Assembly (NCBI GenBank): GCA_021824175.1
Contig: JAKALP010000015.1
Coordinates: 1-64,000 of the forward strand
Length of the DNA stretch: 64,000 bases
Direction: 5' to 3'
From: Deltaproteobacteria bacterium
GTDB lineage: Bacteria > Desulfobacterota > Desulfobacteria > Desulfobacterales > Desulfosarcinaceae
Made by a program: the position numbers and the translations under genes. Positions within the stretch are counted from its first letter, which is position 1, and the number at the start of each line of letters is the position of its first letter. Under the pieces are notes generated by a model. It was not told the DNA's origin. It ran no database searches and saw nothing but the letters and a program-made list of their open reading frames with translations. Positions 32,499 to 45,028 of the stretch are shown here, piece after piece.

Positions 32499-33752
32499 TC
32501 ACGGCATTTCGGCTTCAGTAATCAACAGTTCTTTGGCCGGCCGCAGAATATAGTCTGGAATTTCGGCTTGTTCTTTTTGGGCCGGCAGATACCAGACGGC
32601 TCCGTCAATGATCAACCCAACGGCGCCTATGATGATAAACATATCGAAAACAGTCAAAAAGCTCAACCCGAAGTAGCGCGTCAGGCCAACGCCCAGCGAT
32701 AAGAAGGAGACTCCCGTGCGGATGAATGAAAGGCCGGTGCGGGCGCGGGCGTAGACCGTTCGGTAGCAGGCCGCGACGGTGCGCTGGGCCGACAGCAGAT
32801 TGCGTTCATGCGCCAGGTAGGAACGCTTTTTATTGTCCATGGATTGATCCATTACAATATCGTGCCGCAAGGGCAGCTCCGCCACCCGGGCCAGCATGGT
32901 CTTGCGGGCGGGACGGTTTTGCTCTTGGCGCTCAATGAACCGGTAGTTTTCCAAAAAGTATAAGGTCGCCGACGTAACTTCCACTATGGTCTGGTGCCTG
33001 GGCGGCCGCAGGACATGGCGCTTGATGCGCACGTAGTGGTACAGCCCCAGGAGAATCAGCCCCAGGCCCATGGCGATCAGGGACCAGTAGAAATATTGAT
33101 AATAGGCCGGATACGAACCGCGCAGATGCAGCAGGGACCGACCGATGGCAATCAATCCCATGCCGCCGCCCAGCAGTCCCAGATTGGTTCGGACCTTGGC
33201 GAAATCGGTGCGGTAGCACGCCAGTATGGTTCGCCAGCGCGCCATGGTGTTGCGCCACAGGGCCAGACTGGTTCTTTCATTGCCGATCAAGTGCCTGGGA
33301 TCGCTGTTGAGGAAGTCTTCTTTGAAAGCCTGAATATCTTCGGGCAGCGCCACGCGGAATTCGTATTTGGCGGCCTGGATGTACTCCTTCACCAGGCCGG
33401 GCAGGGCCGGATCTTTGGGGTTGGTGGCGGCAATGATCGCCATCTGCCCATCCTGGGCCACGGGAAACCAGTGGTAGCCACAGATGCCTTTGTCAGCCAG
33501 GGCCACTAATAATTCAAAGGGAATCGGCAGACGCTCGTCGTACTCCGCCCAGGCGCACTCATAGTGGGCGGATAACGCCGTCAACAGCTTGCGTCGCGTG
33601 ACATGGTATTCATGCCGCAGTACTTTTTCGACCTCCACGCCCCGGTTGGCGGCCCCGGCCGCGGCCTCGCGCAGTTTGGCTTCGGACAGAACACCCGTCT
33701 CGACCAGGTGCCGAAATCGGTCTAAGGTTTCATTGATGATTTCAGAGGTCAT
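32499..33752 (-). CDS. GspE/MshE-N-like domain with two DUF202-like membrane units
   Basis: The protein has 417 residues from ATG 33752, which overlaps the end of the upstream gene by 11 bases; 45 further upstream codons are open but overlap that gene and lack family sequence. Residues about 5-145 resemble the N-terminal domain of GspE/MshE-type ATPases (LETGVLSEAKL, then FPVAQDGQMAIIAATNPKD). Two units follow (about 157-245 and 312-390). Each has Arg-Thr steps every seven residues (ERTSLALWRNTMARWRT; ERNLLSAQRTVAACYRT) and then two membrane helices, as in DUF202/YidH. No ATPase domain is present. It is paralogous to the upstream neighbour. Function is unknown. Confidence 0.8.
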   Translation of the reverse strand: MTSEIINETLDRFRHLVETGVLSEAKLREAAAGAANRGVEVEKVLRHEYHVTRRKLLTALSAHYECAWAEYDERLPIPFELLVALADKGICGYHWFPVAQDGQMAIIAATNPKDPALPGLVKEYIQAAKYEFRVALPEDIQAFKEDFLNSDPRHLIGNERTSLALWRNTMARWRTILACYRTDFAKVRTNLGLLGGGMGLIAIGRSLLHLRGSYPAYYQYFYWSLIAMGLGLILLGLYHYVRIKRHVLRPPRHQTIVEVTSATLYFLENYRFIERQEQNRPARKTMLARVAELPLRHDIVMDQSMDNKKRSYLAHERNLLSAQRTVAACYRTVYARARTGLSFIRTGVSFLSLGVGLTRYFGLSFLTVFDMFIIIGAVGLIIDGAVWYLPAQKEQAEIPDYILRPAKELLITEAEMP

Positions 33753-35433
33753 AGCGACTGAAAACGACTTTCTTCCATGAAAGGGTCGGTTGGGCGTAAT
33801 CGGGGAACTGAATCTCCATATCCCAGGAACAGTAAGGGAATGACTCCTTGATTCTTTCGGCTGGAAGATGCCAGCGGAAGCCATCAATGATGAAAATCAA
33901 CCCCATCACCATCAGACAAGCATAGCAAGTCATCCAGGTTATGTTGGACAGGCCGAAGTAGACCAGCAGCCCCATCCCTACGGAGAAGATTTTTACCCCG
34001 GTGCGGATAAAGGCCATGCCGGTCCGGGAGCGCGCTAGAATGGTGCGCAGCCTGGCTTTGACATTGCGCCGTTCAGCGATGAGGGTGCGCTCCAGGGCCA
34101 GTCCGGTGGTGCCCCAGATGCCTGGCGAATGGGACTCCTTGATGAACAGGGCCGTGGGCAGTTCCCCGGCGCTGATGGGGTCGCGCCAGGCCGAGAACAT
34201 GAAATCCCAGATGGAGCGCCGCTGATGTTTTTTGCGGATCAGTTTCAGTCCTTCATTGCCGGCCCGCCGTCCGGGGACATACCAGTGCAGACCCTCCAGG
34301 GTCATGGTCGCGCCCAATAGAATAAAGGTCACATAGCTGATGACCCATCCGCTGGTGGGAAATTGCCGCACCAGGGCGATGCCCAAACCGATCAGGGCGA
34401 TTCCGGTGCGCATAAAAGCCAGACCAGTGCGGGCTTTGGCCATGGCCGAGCGGTAGGATGCCAGGGCCGTGCGCTCTTCGGCATGATCGGTGCGATCAAT
34501 GGCCAGAAACCGCCGCTTCATGATCGGCGAGAGCCGATTCCAGCCGATCCGCAGCGTGTCGGCCCCCTCAATAGGGTCATGGCGCGCGTAGAGCATTTTT
34601 CCATCCACAATACCATGCTCAAGAAAAGAGCTGCCGAAGGTGGATTCGGTCGGATTGTAGGAGGGCATTTGGCGGGCCACCGGCCGGATGGGCAGATACC
34701 AGCGCAACCCCTCCACGGTCAGGGCGAGGCCGACCACCAGAAGCAAGGCATCGGGGATCAGGGCAAAGCCGATCCCGAAAACCTGAAGCAGAACCAGGGC
34801 GATGGCGCTGAAGGAGAGTCCGGTCCGCATCATGGCCAGGCCGGTTCGGCCCTTGGCCAGGGAAGTTCTGTGAAAGGCCAGCAAGGTGCGCATTTTGGCC
34901 AGCGCATTGCGCACCCGCGCCAAAGCCGTGCGGCCAGCCGAGGCCGGATAGTGCGGATTGGCATCCTGATTGTGTTCGATGATGCGCGTGATATCGGGAG
35001 GCAGAGCGATGCATTTGTTGAGTTTTTCTACTTGGAGAGCTGTTTTGATCTCAGCGTCAAGCGCTGCGTCTTCGGGAAAGCCGACCACCACATCGGCCTG
35101 GCGATCCACGACCCGCAAGGGGAACCACAAGCGCTGTTTTAGCCGTTCCAGGTCCAGCCGGGACGCCAGCGTCTCTGTCAGGAGAAAACTTTCGCTGAAC
35201 TCGACGAAGGGCAGATGGTAGCGGTCGGACAGGCAGCGAAGAATCGCGTGTTTGGGCACCCCCATTTCAATCAAGAGCGCTTCCGGGAAGATATCGGCCG
35301 CCTCGGCTTCGTTGAGGATGGCGTGCAGTTTGCCTTCGACAATGACGCCGTTTGCGATCAAACCATCAAATCTTGAATGCGAGCCTGGGCCGAAAATCGG
35401 AGGGGATTGCCCCCAAGGATTAGGATGGTTCAT
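33742..35433 (-). CDS. GspE/MshE-N-like domain with three DUF202-like membrane units
   Basis: The protein has 563 residues. Residues about 20-150 resemble the GspE/MshE N-terminal domain (EMGVPKHAILRCLSDRYHLPF, WFPLRVVDRQADVVVGFPED). Three repeats follow at about 165-250, 308-388 and 445-525. Each starts with a helix in which Arg-Thr recurs every seventh residue (ALARVRNALAKMRT; RTALASYRSAMAKART; RRNVKARLRT), then RTGL/RTGI and two membrane helices ending in a WYLP or WHLP motif. MshE-type N domains can bind cyclic-di-GMP, so a second-messenger-responsive membrane protein is a reasonable inference. The gene lies in an operon with a methyltransferase upstream (12-bp gap) and a shorter paralogue downstream (overlap). 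Confidence 0.8.
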   Translation of the reverse strand: MNHPNPWGQSPPIFGPGSHSRFDGLIANGVIVEGKLHAILNEAEAADIFPEALLIEMGVPKHAILRCLSDRYHLPFVEFSESFLLTETLASRLDLERLKQRLWFPLRVVDRQADVVVGFPEDAALDAEIKTALQVEKLNKCIALPPDITRIIEHNQDANPHYPASAGRTALARVRNALAKMRTLLAFHRTSLAKGRTGLAMMRTGLSFSAIALVLLQVFGIGFALIPDALLLVVGLALTVEGLRWYLPIRPVARQMPSYNPTESTFGSSFLEHGIVDGKMLYARHDPIEGADTLRIGWNRLSPIMKRRFLAIDRTDHAEERTALASYRSAMAKARTGLAFMRTGIALIGLGIALVRQFPTSGWVISYVTFILLGATMTLEGLHWYVPGRRAGNEGLKLIRKKHQRRSIWDFMFSAWRDPISAGELPTALFIKESHSPGIWGTTGLALERTLIAERRNVKARLRTILARSRTGMAFIRTGVKIFSVGMGLLVYFGLSNITWMTCYACLMVMGLIFIIDGFRWHLPAERIKESFPYCSWDMEIQFPDYAQPTLSWKKVVFSRYDL

Positions 35434-35445
35434 GCACGGCCCGCC

Positions 35446-36078
35446 TTATTTCCTTCGGGCCGTCAAGAGAAAGAGCATGAACCGCCGCATCTCTCCATTG
35501 GCCCCAGGTTTGATGACTTCCGCAGCGTCGGTCAGCGCAACGTCCTCAAAACCAGCTTTCTCAAAAGCATTGCGCAACCCCTCGCGATCAAATCCGAAAT
35601 GAAACACCCCGGTATTGTCCTCATGGAACTTGCCTTCATCCGGGTCCAGGTCGGAGATGGCCACCTGACCGCCGGGGACAAGCACATTATAAAGTTGAAG
35701 CAAAAACGGTTCGATCCGCTGGATGTGATGCAGGGTCATATTGCTGATAATCAGGTCATATTTCCCCGGCAGGGCCTGCTCCTGCTCCAGATCCAGCCGT
35801 ACCGTCTTCACCCGGTCCAGCTTTAGTTGCGCGATTTTCCGGTTGAACTGATCCAGCATGCCCTGGGAGCTGTCCACACCGGTAATCGACCCTACCCGCG
35901 GCAGGATCTGAAGGCTTAACAAGCCAGTCCCGCAGCCGAAGTCCAGAACATCCATATCCGGCCGCAACGCCACCGTCTTCGCGATGGCCTGGCTCACATC
36001 TTTGACCATTTTGGACCTCACCGGATTTTCATCCCAGGAGGCTGCCTCTTTGTCGAAATTGCGTTTTTCTGATTGCAT
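35446..36078 (-). CDS. Class I SAM-dependent methyltransferase
   Basis: The protein has 210 residues. Motif I is VLDFGCGTGLLS (near 41-52); GVDSSQGML and DLIISNMTLHHI follow, the layout of ubiquinone/menaquinone-type or small-molecule methyltransferases. The substrate is unknown. It is the first gene of the operon with the two DUF202-repeat proteins. ATG 36078 is preceded by AAGGATCAGG. Confidence 0.9.
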   Translation of the reverse strand: MQSEKRNFDKEAASWDENPVRSKMVKDVSQAIAKTVALRPDMDVLDFGCGTGLLSLQILPRVGSITGVDSSQGMLDQFNRKIAQLKLDRVKTVRLDLEQEQALPGKYDLIISNMTLHHIQRIEPFLLQLYNVLVPGGQVAISDLDPDEGKFHEDNTGVFHFGFDREGLRNAFEKAGFEDVALTDAAEVIKPGANGEMRRFMLFLLTARRK

Positions 36079-36128
36079 AGCCTGATCCTTACCATATCAA
36101 TGCCTTATTCCAAAGACGATCTTGGGCG

Positions 36129-36392
36129 TCAACTCGTCATGGGAGTCTTTGCCATGACGTTTCGTTTCTCCAGCTTGGCCACCCTTGGGTTCGGCCGCAT
36201 CCAGTAAAGGGCGCTCGCTTTTTCCCTGGGTGGTTCTTCTTCGAGCGCCACGATCTCGCCTTGCGTCTCGCTCGCTTTGCATAGAAAGGCCCGCGTTTTC
36301 GCCCCAGTGACCAAGCCCCCTATCAGCAGCCCGACCCCGCAGAGCAAGAACACCGTCGGAATCACATATGAAAGGATAACTTCTTCACCCAT
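36129..36392 (-). CDS. Small membrane protein, possibly truncated DUF3592-like
   Basis: The protein has 87 residues. An N-terminal hydrophobic helix (about 7-30) is followed by AKTRAFLCKASETQGEIVALEEEP, a spacing seen at the start of DUF3592-type proteins. The usual beta-rich remainder is missing and the C terminus looks like out-of-frame sequence, so a 3' truncation or frameshift is possible. There is no clear ribosome-binding site. Confidence 0.5.
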   Translation of the reverse strand: MGEEVILSYVIPTVFLLCGVGLLIGGLVTGAKTRAFLCKASETQGEIVALEEEPPREKASALYWMRPNPRVAKLEKRNVMAKTPMTS

Positions 36393-36415
36393 TATTGGAG
36401 ATCATTTGAGATCTG

Positions 36416-36883
36416 TTATTTTATGATGGAGTAAAACCGACCATTAGTTAATGACTTCAAATCTCCGGCAGAAAGCTCGATTTCCAGACCCCGGCGGCCG
36501 GCGCTGACAAAAATGGTATCAAATGATTTAGCTGAATCGTCAATCACGGTAATCAGCTTTTTCTTCTGAGCAAGGGGGCTCACACCGCCAAGTACATAGC
36601 CAGTTACCCGTTCCACTTCCGATTTGTCGGCCATCGTAACTTTTTTTGCTGCCAGTGCTTTGGCCATTCGTTTTAAATCCAATTGGTGCGAAACGGGCAA
36701 TACCGCGACGGAAAGTCCTTCACTGTCGGAGAAGACAACAAGCGTTTTAAACACTCTATTGCCATCGATCCCCAACTTCAATGCAGCTTCTTCACCATAG
36801 GACTCTGAGGCCGGATCATGGTCGTATTCGTGGATATGAAAATTAATCTTGGCTTTCTTCGCTATATTGATCGCTGGCGTCAT
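36416..36883 (-). CDS. ybaK: Cys-tRNA(Pro) deacylase YbaK family
   Basis: The protein has 155 residues, the usual family length. Family landmarks are HEYDHDP near the start, KTLVV, LPVSHQLDLKRMAKAL, GYVLGGVSPLAQKK and VSAGRRGLEIELSAGDL. It hydrolyses Cys mischarged on tRNA(Pro) in the cytoplasm. It stands alone on the minus strand. Confidence 0.93.
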   Translation of the reverse strand: MTPAINIAKKAKINFHIHEYDHDPASESYGEEAALKLGIDGNRVFKTLVVFSDSEGLSVAVLPVSHQLDLKRMAKALAAKKVTMADKSEVERVTGYVLGGVSPLAQKKKLITVIDDSAKSFDTIFVSAGRRGLEIELSAGDLKSLTNGRFYSIIK

Positions 36884-36967
36884 TGCAGCAGTTGATCTCG
36901 CTTGTTTTGTCTAATACCTGTTGGCAGGCGCAGGTCAGCAAATGCTGCGCCGTCGAGTAGCTCGATG

Positions 36968-37420
36968 TTAGACCGCCAAGGCGAACGGCACTTCATTAAT
37001 AAATCTTCCGAACTGGTCGGCCGCCGCGGCTGTGGAGAGGTCGGTCGTCTCTAACAAGGTTTCTAGGCCCTCAAGTTTAGCGTAGGCCGTTTGTGCTTTT
37101 GTCACTTTGTTGGTTAGATCTTGGATCTTGTGAACGGCAAGCGCGGTGGTGGCGATGAAGGAAAGGATTGTTGCCACGGCGCAGAGAAGCCGCCAGCTCG
37201 GCGAGGTCGTTCCAATTGCTTGGGTGATCGCTTGTGTGAAAGACGGTCCGCCGGCCGCCGGGCCGGCGGTGAGCAGACCCGCAAGACCGGCGCAGACGAT
37301 GCTTGCGATGGTAAGGTGATCGCTTCGGGGTTGGGTCTTGCGCAAAAACTCTTCGATTTGGCCTTTCTTCTCACGAATCCGTTGCTGAAGCTTCTCACGC
37401 GCATCAAGCGTTTCGCTCAT
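36968..37420 (-). CDS. Hypothetical two-helix membrane protein
   Basis: The protein has 150 residues from ATG 37420, with GGGAGGTG upstream; a GTG six bases earlier overlaps that site. It has an N-terminal charged helix (AREKLQQRIREKKGQIEEFL), two hydrophobic segments (about 38-58 and 80-100), and a C-terminal helix. The layout resembles SLATT-like small membrane proteins that accompany defence or signalling genes, but I cannot confirm this. Function is unknown. Confidence 0.65.
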   Translation of the reverse strand: MSETLDAREKLQQRIREKKGQIEEFLRKTQPRSDHLTIASIVCAGLAGLLTAGPAAGGPSFTQAITQAIGTTSPSWRLLCAVATILSFIATTALAVHKIQDLTNKVTKAQTAYAKLEGLETLLETTDLSTAAAADQFGRFINEVPFALAV

Positions 37421-37503
37421 AGTCACCTCCCATGGGTAATGTGCAGCCGAAGGACGCGCCCCTGTTGGTGCGCCCTTCCCAATAAACGGCTGGCATTGTT
37501 TTT

Positions 37504-38193
37504 TTATTCCTTCTTACCGCCGATAAAGCGATAGACAGTCGCCCCAAGCATGCCGCCAATGATCGGGGCTACCCAGAAGAGCCATAGCTGCGACAACGCC
37601 CAGTCTCCCACAAACACGGCGACCCCTGTGCTGCGAGCGGGATTCACAGAGGTGTTGGTCACGGGTATGCTGATCAAGTGGATCAGGGTCAGACACAAGC
37701 CGATCGCAATGGGCGCGAGACCGTTAGGCGCACGTTTATCAGTGGCACCCATAATCACCAGAAGAAACATCATGGTCATAACCACTTCGGTTATGAGCGC
37801 GGAGAAGAGACTATATCCGCCGGGAGAATGGGCCCCGTAACCGTTTGAGGCAAAACCGGCCGAAAGATCAAAGCCCGCTTTACCGCTGGCGATGAGATAC
37901 AAAACACCACCAGCCACGATACCGCCCAAAACCTGGGCAACAATATAAGGCGCCAGCTCTTTGGCCGGAAATCGGCCACCGGCCCAAAGCCCCAGAGATA
38001 CCGCCGGGTTCAGGTGGCACCCCGAAATGTGTCCGATGGCAAAGGCCATTGTAAGCACGGTAAGGCCAAATGCCAACGCCACGCCCAATAGGCCAATGCC
38101 AACATTGGGAAACGCAGCAGCTAAAACAGCGCTGCCGCAACCACCAAGAACCAACCAAAAAGTCCCGAAGAATTCCGCGGCATACTTTTTCAT
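37504..38193 (-). CDS. aqpZ: Aquaporin Z
   Basis: The protein has 229 residues from ATG 38193, with CGGAGG upstream. Six membrane helices and both NPA boxes are present ([16 protein letters not shown]), with [19 protein letters not shown] at the start, the AqpZ signature. It conducts water through the inner membrane. The aromatic/arginine filter Arg is in NPARS. Confidence 0.96.
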
Positions 38194-38225
38194 AATTTCC
38201 TCCGTTACTCCGGCCATGGCCGAAG

Positions 38226-39184
38226 TCATGTAGAATTGTTGTCCAGGCTCGTCGTTTTATTATTCAAATCCAAAAGCCTGGTAGTCTCTTTTGCTACAAC
38301 CTGATTTTTTTGGGCTTTTCCCATCATTGCATCACAAAACAATATTGTTTCTTTGGCTTGCGAATGATGATGGACTTCGGGGTTTATAAATATCTTATGC
38401 TCAATTCTTCTTATCCAGGCAAACACCTTTAGCCATGGTATTTTATTCCCCACCGATGGTGTTCGATGCTTACAATGGATGTGAAGCCCCTTTACCGATT
38501 CATGTGGAATATGACTTAGCTGTTTTAGGAATCCTTCTTTGTAACGGTAAAAAGCTGCTGAATGTCGAGAACGACTCCAACATTTTGCCTTAACTCTCGA
38601 TTTTCAGATAACAATGTTTGCCAAAAATCATTTATCTGCTCACCATTAGAAACAAATTGGCCGGTACGATTTTCAAGGACTATAAATGGGTTGACTCGAA
38701 AACTCCTTTCAAATTTATCACGAATAGTGGTGATTGAACGGACTAGATCTTTACATGTATTGTGTTTTCCACCGGGGTGAATTTCAATACCTGCAGGAGG
38801 GATACCAAACCTTTTCGAAATCGCAAGAACCATATTTACAAAGTCGTGAACCCACTTTTCATCATGCCATTGGAGCTGTGGAGTGTGGGAGGACTCTTTC
38901 CCATTGCGACGTGAAAGTTGAGGTTCTGTGTGCAGAATATATTTTACGTTTTCCGATGGCGCACCCGATTCATATATTTCTTTTACATCATGTGCGCTAA
39001 GAATGCTTCCAAGTTCTTTTCCTGTTAATTGAACTTCTGTTTTATTTTTTATAAAATCCGCGGGCACTTCGACAAAGTTACAGCCATGCGTTTTTGCTAT
39101 TTCATGTCGTTTATGCAGACCGCCACGACCGTTTCGGTTAAATGTTGAAATATTAGGAAAGACATATGCGATATTTTGTTTCAT
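38226..39184 (-). pseudogene. Endonuclease-IV-like TIM-barrel protein with one frameshift
   Basis: From ATG 39184 the frame runs to a stop at 38525 and encodes a TIM-barrel of the AP-endonuclease/xylose-isomerase-like type: NRNGRGGLHKRHEIA, YILHTEPQLS, IEIHPG, VLENRTG, VVLDIQQLF. The next frame continues directly from about 38535 with FLKQLSHIPHESVKGLHIHC and ends at 38226 after INPEVHHHSQAKE. Together they make an about 320-residue protein of the normal length with metal-ligand His and Glu on both sides of the shift. The break is at ACAAAGAAGGATTCC. It could be a natural pseudogene, a sequencing error or, less likely, programmed shifting. The region is AT-rich. Confidence 0.72.
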
Positions 39185-39255
39185 TTTCCTGAAACCCAAC
39201 ACCGCTTGCCGGGAACGGCATTCTCTGCACCATCCCGCAGGCAAGCTTTTTCTTT

Positions 39256-40017
39256 TTATATTATGTCAGGTGAATACTTGCTTAATAGTTTTTTGGTTTT
39301 TGGATTTCTTGAAGTAATCATTTCATGTAGATAAGGCCAATATTCCGATACTAATAAATTTCCTTGCATGTTTCTTCTTACGAAGAAAGATGTTTTAAGA
39401 ACTTTATGATTCCTTAAATCATCAAGAAATATCGGGCTGTCAAGATTGCAAATACGTTCTATACAACCAAAATAGCATTTTCCGTCCCGCCACTCTGCAT
39501 CCCCTACTCCAAGTTCGCCAGTGAACTTAAAGATTTCCGAGATGCTTTTTTCAGGAACACATCTGTACATAAGCAGGAGATCGCCGGGAGTGATCCTTTT
39601 TGACAATGCCCAATTTAACTTATTTGCTCCATCAAGATGAAACCACTGGTTTTTTACTACTGGTTGAATCCAGATCTTTACTCCGACACCGAAATGTCTT
39701 TTAAGTTCGATTATTTCAAGATGTTTCGGTGCTCCAGGCCAATCGTGGTGCCAGCATACGATACAATCACAATTATTTGGATTATGCTTGTGCGATCTGA
39801 AATTGGAAGATTTATATTCGAATTCAATTCTCATGCGTTTTTCATGATTACCAATTTTCCTGTATGCAATACAATCCGGATATTGAGCTCGAATTTGTTC
39901 GACTCTAAATTGGAGCTTCTTTGCAACGTTGGAAAAAAGGAACACAACGCCCAATTCATTTTCCGGGGCATATTGCAATGGACCAGTCTGCAATTGTATC
40001 GATCGTATATTCTTCAT
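39256..40017 (-). CDS. Nuclease-like domain fused to EVE/PUA-like domain
   Basis: The protein has 253 residues from ATG 40017; a start at 40110 is possible but adds no recognisable sequence. The N-terminal part has RIEFEYKSSNF, CDCIVCWHHDWP and HLEIIELK, a pattern I associate with PD-(D/E)XK-like nuclease folds. The C-terminal part (ITPGDLLLMYRC, then SPIFLDDLRNHKVL and FFVRRN) looks like an EVE domain, a fold that reads modified bases. The gene sits 72 bp before the endonuclease-IV-like gene on the same strand. A role in recognising and cutting modified or foreign DNA is inferred. AT-rich composition suggests transfer. Confidence 0.65.
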   Translation of the reverse strand: MKNIRSIQLQTGPLQYAPENELGVVFLFSNVAKKLQFRVEQIRAQYPDCIAYRKIGNHEKRMRIEFEYKSSNFRSHKHNPNNCDCIVCWHHDWPGAPKHLEIIELKRHFGVGVKIWIQPVVKNQWFHLDGANKLNWALSKRITPGDLLLMYRCVPEKSISEIFKFTGELGVGDAEWRDGKCYFGCIERICNLDSPIFLDDLRNHKVLKTSFFVRRNMQGNLLVSEYWPYLHEMITSRNPKTKKLLSKYSPDII

Positions 40018-40514
40018 AGGCGATTCATTATATTTATATGGATAGTGGTTTTTAGCGGCCGGCTGTTGCCAAGCAAAATCTGTGTTAAGCCCCCCAACAT
40101 TTGCTAACAAATTGGTGGTGCCTCTAATAAGCTTTGAAACGTCTGCCTGGTTAGTTCATAAGGCACTTGGAGCTAGTTCGGCTGAAGGGCTGTGGATCAT
40201 CGGCCTACAGAATTTAATACACTTATATTTCTTAATAAATCAAGTAGTTTTAGAATTGGTGGGATAACCGCCACTGGCGGCGGTGCTTGATCGATCTTCA
40301 AATGGGTGATGGCTTTTGTGGTTTTCAGGGCGTATATAACTGGACTGCCGTTTGATGCCTGAAGTGCCCTCTCACCTCGGCCCTCTCCCCGTGGTGAAAA
40401 GGCGCCCTTTCCCCAGGGTTTCAATAGGCACAACCTCGCTGTCAGCCAAGTAATCGTTGCAGATGACTTGAACTTATTTTGATGTGTTTCGGTTTAGAGC
40501 CGGCTTTCCGCCGC
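40018..40514. other. Gap of about 500 bp with no clear gene
   Basis: The AT-rich left part (40018-40300) has no credible frame beyond the possible 31-codon extension of the nuclease gene. From about 40350 to 40410 the GC-rich fragment with CTCACCTCGGCCCTCTCCCC resembles a widespread proteobacterial intergenic repeat. Nothing else stands out. Confidence 0.4.
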
Positions 40515-41450
40515 TCATGGCGATGGGGGCACGGCCTGGTTGGCACTACCTTCGCCCATCGCTGTGTGACGTTGGCCGGCATTTCCATCGATCCATTGGA
40601 TCACCGGTTTTTTGCGCGAGGAAGTGTAGCGGTGGCGAAAAGCGGGGTAGCCCATGACCAGACAGGCGTATACTTTTCTTCCTTTGGGGGTTTGAACCAG
40701 TTGGCGCAGCGGCCGGGAGAATTTGAGGGCGATGCCCAAAAAGCCGATGTAGCAGGTGCCCAGGCCCATGGCGTGGGCGTAGTTCATAATGTTGGCGGCG
40801 GCGATGTTGCAGTTTTCGCCGTGAAATGATCCTTTGCGCGGGCCGTGAGCCAGAATGAGCAGGGGCGCGCGATGCAGGATATAGTCCCGGCCTTTTTGGG
40901 TCTGGTCCAGGTAATACTCCATGACGGTGAGGTAACGCTCCAGGTCATTGGCCGGGGAGAGTTTCTTGAAGAGCAAGTAGATCCACTTGCCGGGAAAGGT
41001 GCGGGTGCGGGCGTAGATCCAGCGGGCGATGCCGAAGACCGTCCGGGAGATTTTATCCAGCAGCCGGGGGTCGGTAATAATGGTGTAGCCGACATTTTGC
41101 TTGTTGCTGGCCGTGGGCGAATGGCTGGCCAGGGCCAGGATGGCTTCGATGGTTTCAACCGGAACCGCCTGGGGCCGGTAGTGCCGGATGCTGCGGCGGC
41201 CGCGCACAATCTCTTTGTAGATCTCCGGGGCCAGCAGGGCGCGGTCCGTGCGGCGGATCTGATCTTGATCCAGGGCATTGTGAACGATGGCGCGCCGGGG
41301 GCAGACCGCCACGCAGTGGCCGCAGCGGTTGCACACTTCCGGGGCCGCCATGACCGGGCGGCCGTTGTCTTCTCTCCAGGCGCCGGCCGCGCAATCACGC
41401 ACGCACAGCAGGCAGGGTTTGCAGCGTTCTTCAAGCAGTCGAATCATCAT
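40515..41450 (-). CDS. Ferredoxin-nitroreductase fusion
   Basis: The protein has 311 residues; ATG codons at 41450 and 41447 are both possible. Two 4Fe-4S motifs lie at the N terminus (Cys10-13-16-20 and Cys40-43-46-50). A nitroreductase domain follows (RRSIRHYRPQAVP, SPTASNKQNVGY, GLGTCYIGFLG, VMGYP), which binds FMN. Such clostridial-type fusions take electrons from the clusters to reduce an organic substrate. It is the last of three overlapping minus-strand genes (43448 to 40515) and starts 20 bases inside the metallo-hydrolase gene. The substrate is unknown. Confidence 0.9.
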   Translation of the reverse strand: MMIRLLEERCKPCLLCVRDCAAGAWREDNGRPVMAAPEVCNRCGHCVAVCPRRAIVHNALDQDQIRRTDRALLAPEIYKEIVRGRRSIRHYRPQAVPVETIEAILALASHSPTASNKQNVGYTIITDPRLLDKISRTVFGIARWIYARTRTFPGKWIYLLFKKLSPANDLERYLTVMEYYLDQTQKGRDYILHRAPLLILAHGPRKGSFHGENCNIAAANIMNYAHAMGLGTCYIGFLGIALKFSRPLRQLVQTPKGRKVYACLVMGYPAFRHRYTSSRKKPVIQWIDGNAGQRHTAMGEGSANQAVPPSP

Positions 41451-42438
41451 GGCAGATTTTCAGGATTCCTTTTTCTTCTTCCAACCGCGCGCGGCCTTCG
41501 GCTTCAAGAATCTGCAAATGGGTGAAGATTTCAGACAGGGCCAAGAAGAGATTGAGCACAAAGGCTCTGCCCTTGATTTCCGGGAACAGCTCGCGGGCGA
41601 TGTCGTAAATGCTCTGCCTGGGCCGCTGCTGGATGACTCCTAGAATGGCGCTTTGGCGCTGGTCAAAACAGCGGCGGTAGATGCGGTGCAGGACCTCGAA
41701 ATCCCGGATTTCCGCGCCGTGGGCCGGGTAGATGATTTGGGGATCGAGCCTGGCAATGGTCTCCAGGGAATTGAAATACTCCTTTTGGCTTTGCCGGACG
41801 GGCACAAGCGGGTTTCTCTCCAGCATGGGCAGCGCATTGGGCGTGATGTGGCCCAGAATATGATCGCCGGAAAAAAGCAAACCTTCTTTTTCGATGAACA
41901 GGCTGATGGAGCCGCGGGTATGGCCCGGCGTGGCCACCACCTTGGCTTCGTAATCGCCCAAAATTAGTTTGTCGCCGTCTTCGAGGCTGTGGTTGACGCG
42001 GCAGGCGCGGGTCAGGTGCCGGTTCCAGAAGAACATGTTCTGGATGGCCAGGCGATAGGCGATGGGAGTGCCGGTGCGCACCAGAAAGCGGCGGTAGGCC
42101 CGCAAGGGGGCGTCGTTGCCGGCTTCGATGGAGGCGATTTCGTCGCGATGGGCGCACACGGTGAGCAGGTTGCGGCTGTGCCGGGCGATGGTGCGGACAG
42201 CCCCCTGGTGATCCAGGTGGCCGTGGGTCAAGACAATGCGCTCGATATCGGCAAACCGTACTTCCAACCGCGCCAGGGCTGCTTTGAGCACCCACGAACC
42301 CCAGAAGGTGCCGGTGTCGATCAGGGCGACGTTGTCCCGGCCCTTGAAGAGATAGACATTTACCGGTCCGGGCTTTTTGCCGAACATGGGCAGCCGGATG
42401 CGCGTAATTCCCGGATGTATCTGGGTGATAGTCTTCAC
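41431..42438 (-). CDS. Metallo-beta-lactamase-fold hydrolase
   Basis: The protein has 335 residues. The zinc motif HGHLDHQGA is at about 73-81, with further ligands in ATPGHTRGS and YPAHG. NVYLFKGRDNVALIDTG starts the fold. The C-terminal helical part (IYDIARELFPEIKG) is that of the LACTB2-like group, which may act on thioesters or nucleic acids. It overlaps the upstream alpha/beta hydrolase by four bases (ATGA) and the downstream fusion by 20 bases. Confidence 0.9.
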   Translation of the reverse strand: MKTITQIHPGITRIRLPMFGKKPGPVNVYLFKGRDNVALIDTGTFWGSWVLKAALARLEVRFADIERIVLTHGHLDHQGAVRTIARHSRNLLTVCAHRDEIASIEAGNDAPLRAYRRFLVRTGTPIAYRLAIQNMFFWNRHLTRACRVNHSLEDGDKLILGDYEAKVVATPGHTRGSISLFIEKEGLLFSGDHILGHITPNALPMLERNPLVPVRQSQKEYFNSLETIARLDPQIIYPAHGAEIRDFEVLHRIYRRCFDQRQSAILGVIQQRPRQSIYDIARELFPEIKGRAFVLNLFLALSEIFTHLQILEAEGRARLEEEKGILKICHDDSTA

Positions 42439-43448
42439 GCCGTCGGCTCCACCATCTCCTGAAGCCAGGCGGCGATTTCGGGAGTGACCTCCTGTACCCG
42501 ATTGATCATCACCAGATGCTCGCGATTTTTGAGAAGAAGAAAGTGCTTGCGGCAGGTGAGCCGCTGGTAGATCTCTTCCACGTAGGATTGGGGAAAGATA
42601 TGGTCCTTGCCCGAATGCACCACCATGATGGGCACTTTGATGGCTTCCACGGGTTTGGCCAGGGGTGTCTTGAGCAGCGAGTTAAGGGCGCGCCAGGTGA
42701 TCCAGGTGACGCACAGGGGATCTTGTTGGATGTAATCGGCGGCGCTGAGGCCGTTTTCCAAATACTCTTCTTTCAGATCGAGGTACAGCGCGATGGGTAT
42801 GACAAAACGTCGGTAGATGCCCATTGTCAGTTGGGCCAGGGGCGTCATCCAGTAAGGCACGCGGATTTTGGAGAGTACCTGGTTTTCCCGGCCGTTGAGG
42901 TCGGCCAGGTTGTGGCACACGGCGGCGGCCAGGGAATCGTCCTGGGCCGCGGCGTAGAAAGCAGCGATGCCGCCCTGGCTGCTGCCTACCAAAGCCACTT
43001 TGCCGCCAAAGCGTTGGCGGGCATAGGCGGCCACGGCCAGGGCGTCGGCCGCGATTTCGCCGATGGTGTAGTCGCCCCTGGGTCCGCTGCTGCGGCCATG
43101 GCCCCTGGGATCAAAGGCCACCACATTGAAGCCGGTCATGCTGAGGGCATGCAGGAAATTCATATAGGTCTGGGCGTAGACCGAGGTGCCGGGGATGAAC
43201 ACCACCGTGGGCAAGCCCCTGCCATTGGCCAGGATATCCAGATGCAGCCGCACCCCGTTGGCCTCAAGGCTGTTCTCTTCCAGCAGTCCCATGACCGCCT
43301 TGAGGTTGAGCATGTCCTGGTTGTCGGCCCGGAATTGCTCGATGATGGTTTCATCGGGAACCGCGTGGTGGGTTTTATAAAAGCTGAAGACGTACCAGGC
43401 CAGGTGGAAGAGCAGCAGCACGATGACGAGGAAGAGAAGAAGTGACAT
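42435..43448 (-). CDS. Alpha/beta hydrolase with N-terminal membrane anchor
   Basis: The protein has 337 residues from ATG 43448, preceded by AGAAGGTG; the open frame upstream consists of repeat sequence. A hydrophobic helix (about 2-20) anchors it. The hydrolase fold shows FIPGTSVY, FDPRGHGRSSG, the nucleophile elbow GSSQGG, an acidic residue in HSGKDHIF and the His of REHLVM. The lid is helical. It is the first gene of the three-gene overlapping operon, which may process an ester or thioester. Confidence 0.9.
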   Translation of the reverse strand: MSLLLFLVIVLLLFHLAWYVFSFYKTHHAVPDETIIEQFRADNQDMLNLKAVMGLLEENSLEANGVRLHLDILANGRGLPTVVFIPGTSVYAQTYMNFLHALSMTGFNVVAFDPRGHGRSSGPRGDYTIGEIAADALAVAAYARQRFGGKVALVGSSQGGIAAFYAAAQDDSLAAAVCHNLADLNGRENQVLSKIRVPYWMTPLAQLTMGIYRRFVIPIALYLDLKEEYLENGLSAADYIQQDPLCVTWITWRALNSLLKTPLAKPVEAIKVPIMVVHSGKDHIFPQSYVEEIYQRLTCRKHFLLLKNREHLVMINRVQEVTPEIAAWLQEMVEPTA

Positions 43449-43469
43449 TTGAGAACACCTTCTATCAGG

Positions 43470-43797
43470 GCGTTGATTGGTGAATTGGTTGATTCGTTGA
43501 CTATGCGGCGGTACGCGACGGCATACCGCGTCGCATTGGTGCAGCCTCATCGCGACCTACGCGTTATCGCGCCACGGCTGCAATCATTACTTCTTTCCAC
43601 CATCAGCGCTATCCGTGTGATCCGTGTCATCCGTGGTCAATTTTTTACCACGGATTGCACGGATTGCACGGATAGAATTGATAAACCGTTGGATGCCCGC
43701 CGCAGTGTATCCCGTATTCATGCGGGGCGGGGAATACGTGAACGCATCAACGCATCAACCAATCAACGAATAACGACTCAACTAATCAACGCATCCA
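43470..43797. repeat. GTTGATTCG-word arms around an ATCCGTG hairpin
   Basis: Left words CGTTGATTGGTGAATTGG (43470-43503) and right words CGCATCAACCAATCAACG (43741-43797) are inverted complements. The right arm contains the stop codon of the acyl-CoA dehydrogenase. Nested between them at 43611-43676 is an ATCCGTG-word hairpin. Two unrelated word families are thus nested in one 330-bp gap. Confidence 0.82.
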
Positions 43798-45028
43798 AAA
43801 ACTTGATCTTCTTCACCGGCGCGATGCCCATCAAGGCCTGGATATGCTTGGCGTCGCGGAAGCGTTTTTCCTGGCCGAAGTCTTTCATGTAGCCCACGCC
43901 GCCCAGCACCTGGATGCCATCGGTGGTCAGGTCGCAGGCCATCTCCTGGATGTGCAGGGCCGCGGCCCGGGTGCGCGACTCCCATTTGGGCGCCTGGTTG
44001 TCGGCCGCCTGGCAGGCCTGGGCCACAATCATTTCGGCATTGTTGATTTTAAGGGCCATGTTGGCCAGGATCATCTTGACTTCGGACCAGTGGATAATGG
44101 TCTGGCCGCCCTGCTCGCGCCGGCGGGCATAATCCAGGGCTTCCTGGAACGAGCCTTTCATGATGCCCAGGGACATGGCCGCGGCCGCGGCATGCATGCG
44201 GTCCGCCATCTGGTTGAAATAGAGGCTGCCCTGGCCGGCCTGGCCGATCAGTTTGGCCGGCGTGCGGTTGAACTCCATGTCCACGGCCGGGCAGGCATGC
44301 AGTCCGAGGCTGAGGACCGGCTCGCTTTTCTTGAGTCCGGCGGTCTCCAGGCCCACCAGAAAGTAGGAGAAATCCTTGGCGCCGGGGGTCCGGGCCGGAA
44401 TCAAGGCTTGCTTGGCCATGCTGCCCAGCACTACATATTCAATGGTGCCGGAAAGGGTATATCCGCCCTCGGCCGGCTGGGCCTGGGCCAGGTGTTTGAC
44501 TTCGGCGGGGTTGTTAAAAACCGGCAGGGCGATGAGAAAATCGTGCAGGCGCTTGGCGCTGCAAATGGTTTTCAGGGGCTCGGCGGCGCCGGCATGGCGC
44601 AGGATCTCCTGGCCCGCTAGGGTGGTAAAGATGATGCCGCCCAGGCTGGCATCCTCACGGCAGATGTTTTCCAACACCACCCCCAGGGCGTTGAGGCCCA
44701 GGCTCATGCCCTGCAGGGCCTCGGGCAGCAGGATGTGGAAGAAATCCAGGCCAAAGGCCTTTTCAACCACATCGGTGAACAGCGGGCCAAAGGGGTACTT
44801 GTCGCTCTCTTCCCGGTTGGGCGCGAGCTGTTTGGCGGCAAACTCCTTGGCCGCCTTGGCCATCATGGCCAGCTCTTTGTCCAGACCGGAATCGTCCGCG
44901 GCGCTTTTGGATCTCTGCGCGGGGCGGGCTTGGCCGCTCTTGGCCGAGGCAGTGGCGATGGCAATGGGTTCAATTGATTGGGGCGATTTTTTTTCGACAA
45001 CGGCGACCTCTTGATCCTGCTTTTCCAT
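43778..45028 (-). CDS. Acyl-CoA dehydrogenase family protein with acidic/Ala-rich tail
   Basis: The protein has 416 residues. The first 50 residues are low-complexity (Ser, Ala, Lys, Gln-rich) and precede a normal acyl-CoA dehydrogenase fold: an N-terminal helical part (FAAKQLAPNREESDKYPFG), a middle beta domain (LSGTIEYVVLGSMA) and a C-terminal four-helix part ending GIQVLGGVGYMKDF. The flavin-binding TDGIQVLGG motif is intact. The middle domain is atypical, so the substrate is uncertain. The stop codon lies in a GTTGATTAG-word repeat. A palindrome 155 bp upstream of its start (45183-45198) may regulate it. Confidence 0.88.
   Translation of the reverse strand: MEKQDQEVAVVEKKSPQSIEPIAIATASAKSGQARPAQRSKSAADDSGLDKELAMMAKAAKEFAAKQLAPNREESDKYPFGPLFTDVVEKAFGLDFFHILLPEALQGMSLGLNALGVVLENICREDASLGGIIFTTLAGQEILRHAGAAEPLKTICSAKRLHDFLIALPVFNNPAEVKHLAQAQPAEGGYTLSGTIEYVVLGSMAKQALIPARTPGAKDFSYFLVGLETAGLKKSEPVLSLGLHACPAVDMEFNRTPAKLIGQAGQGSLYFNQMADRMHAAAAAMSLGIMKGSFQEALDYARRREQGGQTIIHWSEVKMILANMALKINNAEMIVAQACQAADNQAPKWESRTRAAALHIQEMACDLTTDGIQVLGGVGYMKDFGQEKRFRDAKHIQALMGIAPVKKIKFLDALIS

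Follow-up and report, generated by a model that had tools for sequence, protein, structure and literature searches.

An AT-rich islet in a Desulfosarcinaceae genome with a putative EVE-type modification-dependent endonuclease gene and a frameshifted, cassette-like barrel gene

An AT-rich islet in the genome of a deltaproteobacterium of the Desulfosarcinaceae (assembly GCA_021824175.1) is fairly likely to consist of two separately acquired genes, a type IV-like gene (gene 1) and a broken cassette gene (gene 2), which became neighbours through capture and not through selection for a pair. The islet occupies positions 38226-40017 of the window, by which we mean the whole 64,000-nucleotide stretch of contig JAKALP010000015.1 that was analysed, and it is filled by two minus-strand reading frames. 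We base this reading on domains, folds (as predicted), cassette edges, a frameshift and an integron integrase in the same genome, all of which the analysis shows. Both parts belong to known kinds, as new members or variants, and fusions of EVE with PD-(D/E)XK domains have already been described (PMC7641849). Two protein families that appear to be uncatalogued would add to the pool of genes with a likely defence role: one is a compact PD-(D/E)XK-like domain, which occurs in about 5% of the sampled genomes of the phylum and is fused to EVE in either order, the other a barrel gene that seems to travel as an integron cassette.

Composition and surroundings of the islet

The G+C content of the islet (38230-40340) is 39.6%, compared with 55.9% in the flank at 34000-38200 and 59.4% in the flank at 40450-44500. 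On one side the islet adjoins an aquaporin gene (37504-38229; MIP, E 1.3e-52) and on the other a nitroreductase/ferredoxin gene (40515-41450; E 2e-27). The initial annotation had described the islet as more AT-rich than its surroundings and as lying between unrelated housekeeping-type genes, and our data agree with it in both respects; its view of the islet as transferred DNA is likewise supported, by the composition and by the cassette edges described below. It had also named flanking direct repeats as a check, and at the islet edges no direct repeats marking an insertion stood out. A second copy of the islet was not found in its own genome, nor was an empty site found by way of the aquaporin and nitroreductase genes of relatives; two relatives that have both genes (G402 and G404) carry them on different contigs.

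Upstream of gene 1, the AT-rich stretch 40020-40450 holds just one short, unassigned frame (40197-40433) and has no second copy in the genome. On the other side of the islet, two minus-strand frames were noted: one, located 3' of the aquaporin gene (36968-37426), encodes a protein of 152 aa that belongs to no Pfam family and has what are likely two membrane segments, and the other (33742-35433) a 563-aa protein with an odd combination of repeated DUF202 domains and a MshEN domain.

Gene 1, a putative EVE-type endonuclease

Gene 1 and its two domains are placed as follows:

39256-40017, minus strand: gene 1, for a putative modification-dependent endonuclease of the EVE type; 253 aa, counted from the ATG at 40017
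39688-39981, minus strand: N-terminal PD-(D/E)XK-like nuclease domain of gene 1, residues ~13-110
39307-39678, minus strand: C-terminal EVE domain (PUA superfamily) of gene 1, residues ~114-237

A longer frame of gene 1 with a TTG start extends to 40110. The protein encoded in the window showed no sequence match in Pfam, NCBIfam, PADLOC, PHROGs or PDB. Its C terminus had been called EVE-type in the initial annotation, and this assignment holds up at the level of sequence profiles: compared with the canonical EVE domain by hhalign, the C-terminal part reached an E of 1.9e-7, and the Pfam EVE model was matched by four of five family members (best E 0.004, below the curated cut-off), the window's copy alone giving no Pfam EVE match. 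A PDB profile search with gene 1 returned weak, chance-like rows only, including 2gbs, which we take to be EVE-type, at E 0.31 for the C-terminal part. Profile comparisons of the window's EVE part gave no support either with the EVE part of a relative with swapped domain order (L017; E 0.079) or with the N terminus of an EVE-HNH protein encoded next to a gene-2 relative (L063; E 0.073), two proteins that owe their EVE labels to Pfam alone, at L063 below the cut-off. We also considered gene 1 as a resident EVE gene and dropped this explanation, because a canonical EVE gene is present in just 2 of 21 close relatives.

The N-terminal domain of gene 1 is predicted to adopt a PD-(D/E)XK-type fold. 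A model built from seven sequences is confident over residues 21-110 and becomes poor after them; with this model Foldseek gave no match at E 0.001 or better, and VIA-align placed EndoMS/NucS on top (Z 7.2, 84 residues, rmsd 2.6), followed by BsmI (5.8), VRR-NUC (5.7), FokI (5.4), MspJI (5.1) and AspBHI (5.0), a list that is coherent, although a Z near 7 is weak taken alone. All of these are presumably PD-(D/E)XK enzymes, and MspJI and AspBHI are modification-dependent. The confident model of this domain and the VIA-align list argue for the restriction-nuclease-like core that had been proposed earlier, and the motifs on which that proposal was built (FEYKS, CDCIVCW and EIIELK) are present in gene 1. 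Among 24 sequences, E21, D48 and E67 are invariant, E65 varies only in one copy with a stop, and C88 and W89 are invariant or nearly so; the position two after E67 is variable, and gene 1 is therefore without a fixed lysine. The E...D...E-x-E arrangement presumably resembles the site of BamHI.

Matches to gene 1 at E 0.01 occur in 20 of 395 genomes of the phylum (~5%), a count that takes in the window's own genome as well as weak and partial rows (L018, L019, L021 and L022 are partial), one copy with a stop (L011) and one match that we do not believe (L020, E 0.006). Full-length proteins are encoded in two other genomes of the phylum (G197 at 60% and G140 at 39%), and at L017 the two domains stand in swapped order, the EVE domain there being over the Pfam cut-off; the remaining matches cover the N-terminal domain only, some of them weak or partial. 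Frames with this domain are often ~140-180 aa long, or the domain is joined to other parts, e.g., to homing-endonuclease-associated repeats at L009.

Such a fusion would suit an alternative in which the endonuclease of gene 1 is mobile or carried by phages (homing-like or inter-phage), arrived with phage DNA and does not serve host defence. Two further loci, both from a pattern scan of IMG/VR, point the same way: on a phage contig, a terminase and a portal gene flank a full-length gene-1 relative (L049:1483-2238), and another has an integrase/recombinase gene near it (L048). These are, however, the only two full-length relatives from the IMG/VR pattern scan; five further viral contigs carry the N-terminal domain only (L050, L051 and L065-L067), and tblastn detected no relative of gene 1 among 50,697 phage records and 72,556 plasmids. 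The location at L049 is not decisive for the role of gene 1, because phages carry modification-dependent enzymes too (PMC10101028). Since the nuclease domain is moreover fused, in either order, to a domain that reads modified bases, we regard a phage-borne origin outside host defence as unlikely.

Gene 1 is instead best read, by analogy, as a small modification-dependent (type IV) restriction endonuclease. Bell, Wolf and Koonin 2020 (PMC7641849) treat EVE-PD(D/E)XK fusions, in which EVE may stand at either end, as putative type IV enzymes, and PMC7897488 describes binding of 5mC/5hmC by base flipping in VcaM4I, an EVE-HNH enzyme, and protection of E. coli against T4gt phage by TspA15I, which is related to VcaM4I. 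Because of these fusions and the VcaM4I/TspA15I precedent, we infer that gene 1 works likewise, and its enzyme activity, base specificity and defence role are putative: the EVE domain would bind to a modified base of DNA entering the cell, and the N-terminal PD-(D/E)XK-like domain (E21, D48, E65-x-E67) would cut nearby. With the EVE-PD(D/E)XK type IV enzymes gene 1 shares the fusion of an EVE reader to a PD-(D/E)XK-type nuclease; it differs from them in a nuclease domain that has no Pfam, NCBIfam, PADLOC or PHROGs model, shows E/D/E-x-E with no fixed lysine, and often stands alone. VcaM4I-like EVE-HNH enzymes also use EVE as a modified-base sensor in a small one-gene enzyme, but an HNH domain is absent from gene 1, in which EVE is C-terminal. 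The nuclease branch of gene 1 is likely uncatalogued in the four collections just named, and PMC7641849 may already count it.

Gene 2: fold, cassette edges and truncation

Gene 2 comprises the following features:

39194-39200, minus strand: GTTGGGT, left edge of the gene-2 cassette with the crossover between G and TT; the similarity of four loci starts here
38525-39184, minus strand: 5' part of gene 2, endonuclease-IV-like TIM barrel, 219 aa, ending at a premature TAA
~38528-38533, minus strand: one-base deletion in gene 2, in a run of T that is longer by one in relatives
38226-38543, minus strand: 3' part of gene 2, displaced into a different frame; relatives are similar as far as ~38322
38308-38314, minus strand: GCCCAAA, probable decayed R'' box and right edge of the cassette; ACCCAAC/T in intact relatives

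A pattern scan of 84,980 species gave three intact relatives of gene 2, in Candidatus Desulfaltia bathyphila (L062), Desulfobacteraceae Eth-SRB1 (L063) and Desulfobacteraceae PIR-30 (L064). When 389 genomes from the order of the window were searched with a profile, the window, one false hit and G370, G615 and G406 came out, the last three being, to judge by their contig coordinates, presumably the same loci again. Two weak matches were discarded, one in the window's own genome (G000:C32, L025; E 0.0057) with stops inside, and one (G653, L081; E 5e-4) that by eye is a RelA/SpoT-type protein. Viral scans with the gene-2 alignments gave no relative.

The product of gene 2 is predicted to be a xylose-isomerase-like TIM barrel. 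Its model is weak (pLDDT 51.9) and gave 42 Foldseek matches at E 0.001 or better, with AsfvAP and Nfo of T. maritima on top; AP endonucleases and xylose isomerases both score well, and ketose epimerases fit too. Like endonuclease IV, represented by the genome's own Nfo, gene 2 has the barrel fold, and the HPG, ENxxGQ, LD and LH motifs align. The third metal site of endonuclease IV consists of His182, Asp229 and His231. In all three intact relatives of gene 2, in what is a remote alignment, the CH histidine of the genome's own Nfo is replaced by Q and its DRH loop falls in a gap. The profile comparison of gene 2 with Nfo was not significant (E 0.034, probability 1.5), the Pfam AP-endonuclease model matched none of the four gene-2 members, and a PDB profile search gave no match. 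For the window's protein there was no NCBIfam match, and nothing usable came from Pfam, PADLOC and PHROGs scans or from a PDB sequence search. Because the third-metal-site residues are absent and the profile comparison is not significant, we call gene 2 endonuclease-IV-like and not an AP endonuclease; the models suggest an uncatalogued, endonuclease-IV-like family. The AP-endonuclease-like TIM barrel of the initial annotation thus stands as a fold, whereas neither a family-model match nor the third metal site goes with it, and the cutting of base-free sites that had been ascribed to this protein is doubtful, because the residues aligned with that site in endonuclease IV are missing.

On the evidence of its edges, gene 2 appears to move as an integron gene cassette, because similarity begins at TTGGGT and the matching reverse complement follows the stop. 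The four loci become similar in DNA sequence exactly at TTGGGT, which lies 15 bases ahead of the ATG, and in each of the six locus pairs the ten bases inside this edge are identical (10/10), compared with at most 5 of 10 in the ten bases outside. ACCCAAC or ACCCAAT, the reverse complement of (G/A)TTGGGT, is located at or just after the stop in the three intact copies, which therefore start at (G/A)TTGGGT and end at its reverse complement in the manner of integron cassettes. The copies of Desulfaltia and Eth-SRB1 share the gene-2 unit, including an attC-like hairpin, up to the point between G and T and then diverge, and the cassette upstream in Desulfaltia obeys the same edge rule (GTTATAT to ATATAAC). 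Unlike typical integron cassettes, gene 2 of the window lies outside a recognisable array and its attC is decayed: no attC hairpin was discernible at its right end, where the fold test gave z -0.93, compared with z -3.08 in Desulfaltia (1 of 200 shuffles as good). The window's genome (G000) encodes an integron integrase (474.8 bits, cut-off 265), an integrase over the family cut-off is also present in G370, and the G+C content of the cassette array of G000, 39.6%, equals that of the islet.

The chromosomal integron of G000 (G000:C9:35713-41823; L034 and L035) comprises the integrase followed by about seven AT-rich cassettes with clear attC-like sites, and its array is cut off where the contig stops. 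A weak resemblance to nucleoside deoxyribosyltransferases (Pfam E 2.3e-4, below cut-off) was seen for one cassette protein (L035:1823-2746), and the other six cassette proteins tested belong to no Pfam family.

Gene 1 might have its own cassette edges, for which two candidates were found:

40334-40340, minus strand: GTTATAT, possible left edge of a gene-1 cassette, equal to a cassette start at L024; weak and could be chance
39204-39246, minus strand: inverted repeat GCTTGCC...GGCAAGC, which might be the attC of a gene-1 cassette; z -2.17 in the fold test, in which 9 of 200 shuffles did as well

When the hairpin between the genes was scored, 69 of 93 background sites were as good, true sites thus not being separable from background, and in a fold-based attC scan the true sites came out together with many false ones. 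In plus-strand orientation, the inverted repeat is followed by a T-rich tract (39204-39260) and is terminator-like; no plus-strand gene is evident.

The initial annotation had let the pair begin at 38226, which is the end of the displaced tail; the frame of gene 2 itself stops at 38525, and the gene is not intact. With 219 of ~290 residues, the relatives running ~70 residues further, gene 2 of the window probably makes no full protein any more, judged from its frames. The displaced 3' part shows no further stop as far as 38226, and its dN/dS (0.06-0.15) compares with 0.11-0.17 in the 5' part; because this part is conserved to the same degree as the remainder, the base was lost recently or is missing through an assembly error. 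A sequencing or assembly error, with the gene intact and working, would agree with this conservation, with the stop-free tail and with the position of the deletion in a short T run, but the right end of the cassette has decayed as well, which fits an ageing copy, and we consider such an error less probable than a real loss.

The two genes as neighbours

The initial annotation had joined both genes in one defence system and had held that their failure to co-occur elsewhere would speak against it. Gene 2 was found near none of four full-length gene-1 relatives (5 to 19 kb of DNA each), and gene 1 near none of three gene-2 relatives (9 to 17 kb each), so that, in a small sample of 4 + 3 loci, the result went against the pair. 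Because of these counts and of the gene-2 frameshift, a conserved two-gene module is disfavoured.

If such a system existed, the EVE nuclease would recognise modified phage DNA and the endonuclease-IV-like partner would cut or process the site, e.g., a base-free or nicked one. The two genes are adjacent and on the same strand, and in Eth-SRB1 gene 2 is again located directly behind a gene for an EVE-type nuclease, here of the HNH type (Pfam HNH 7e-4 and EVE 0.0054, both below cut-off; PADLOC type IV 1.1e-5; McrA-type PDB chain 0.0012); with gene 1 of the window, two of the four gene-2 copies therefore stand directly behind an EVE nuclease, a count made after the fact on loci too few to decide. 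The surroundings of gene 2 are defence-like in Eth-SRB1 and in PIR-30, where two PADLOC candidate families are present. The genes upstream of gene 2 differ, however, a DUF3467-like/toxin-antitoxin-like cassette being found in Desulfaltia and a TatD-like gene in PIR-30, and gene 2 is truncated in the window and lacks the third metal site. AP endonucleases promote restriction by R.PabI (PMC10273834) but were dispensable for Brig1 (PMC11078745). We regard a two-gene system as quite improbable.

Similarly improbable, in our estimate, is a mix-and-match type IV defence, in which a barrel without the third metal site would be a mobile integron-cassette partner, captured repeatedly behind EVE nucleases (PD-(D/E)XK-like here, HNH in Eth-SRB1), one protein reading and cutting modified DNA and the other processing the site. 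If the barrel gene did partner EVE nucleases, integrons would supply accessory parts to restriction enzymes. We favour separate acquisition of the two genes: gene 2, a rare barrel gene, may have spread among bacteria of the window's order as an integron cassette, been captured just downstream of gene 1 and later lost one base, and the two genes would be adjacent through this capture and not through selection for the pair.

Two neighbourhoods of gene-2 relatives were noted in their own right. Upstream of the relative in Desulfaltia (L036:1362-3196, minus strand) lie DUF3467-like and PIN-like cassettes and a toxin-antitoxin-like pair, labels that were given partly by eye and with weak Pfam support. 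In Eth-SRB1, a defence-like cluster (L063:7062-13502) comprises the EVE-HNH gene, the gene-2 relative, an HNH-like zinc protein (by eye), a BsuBI/PstI-type methylase and restriction enzyme, and RhuM.
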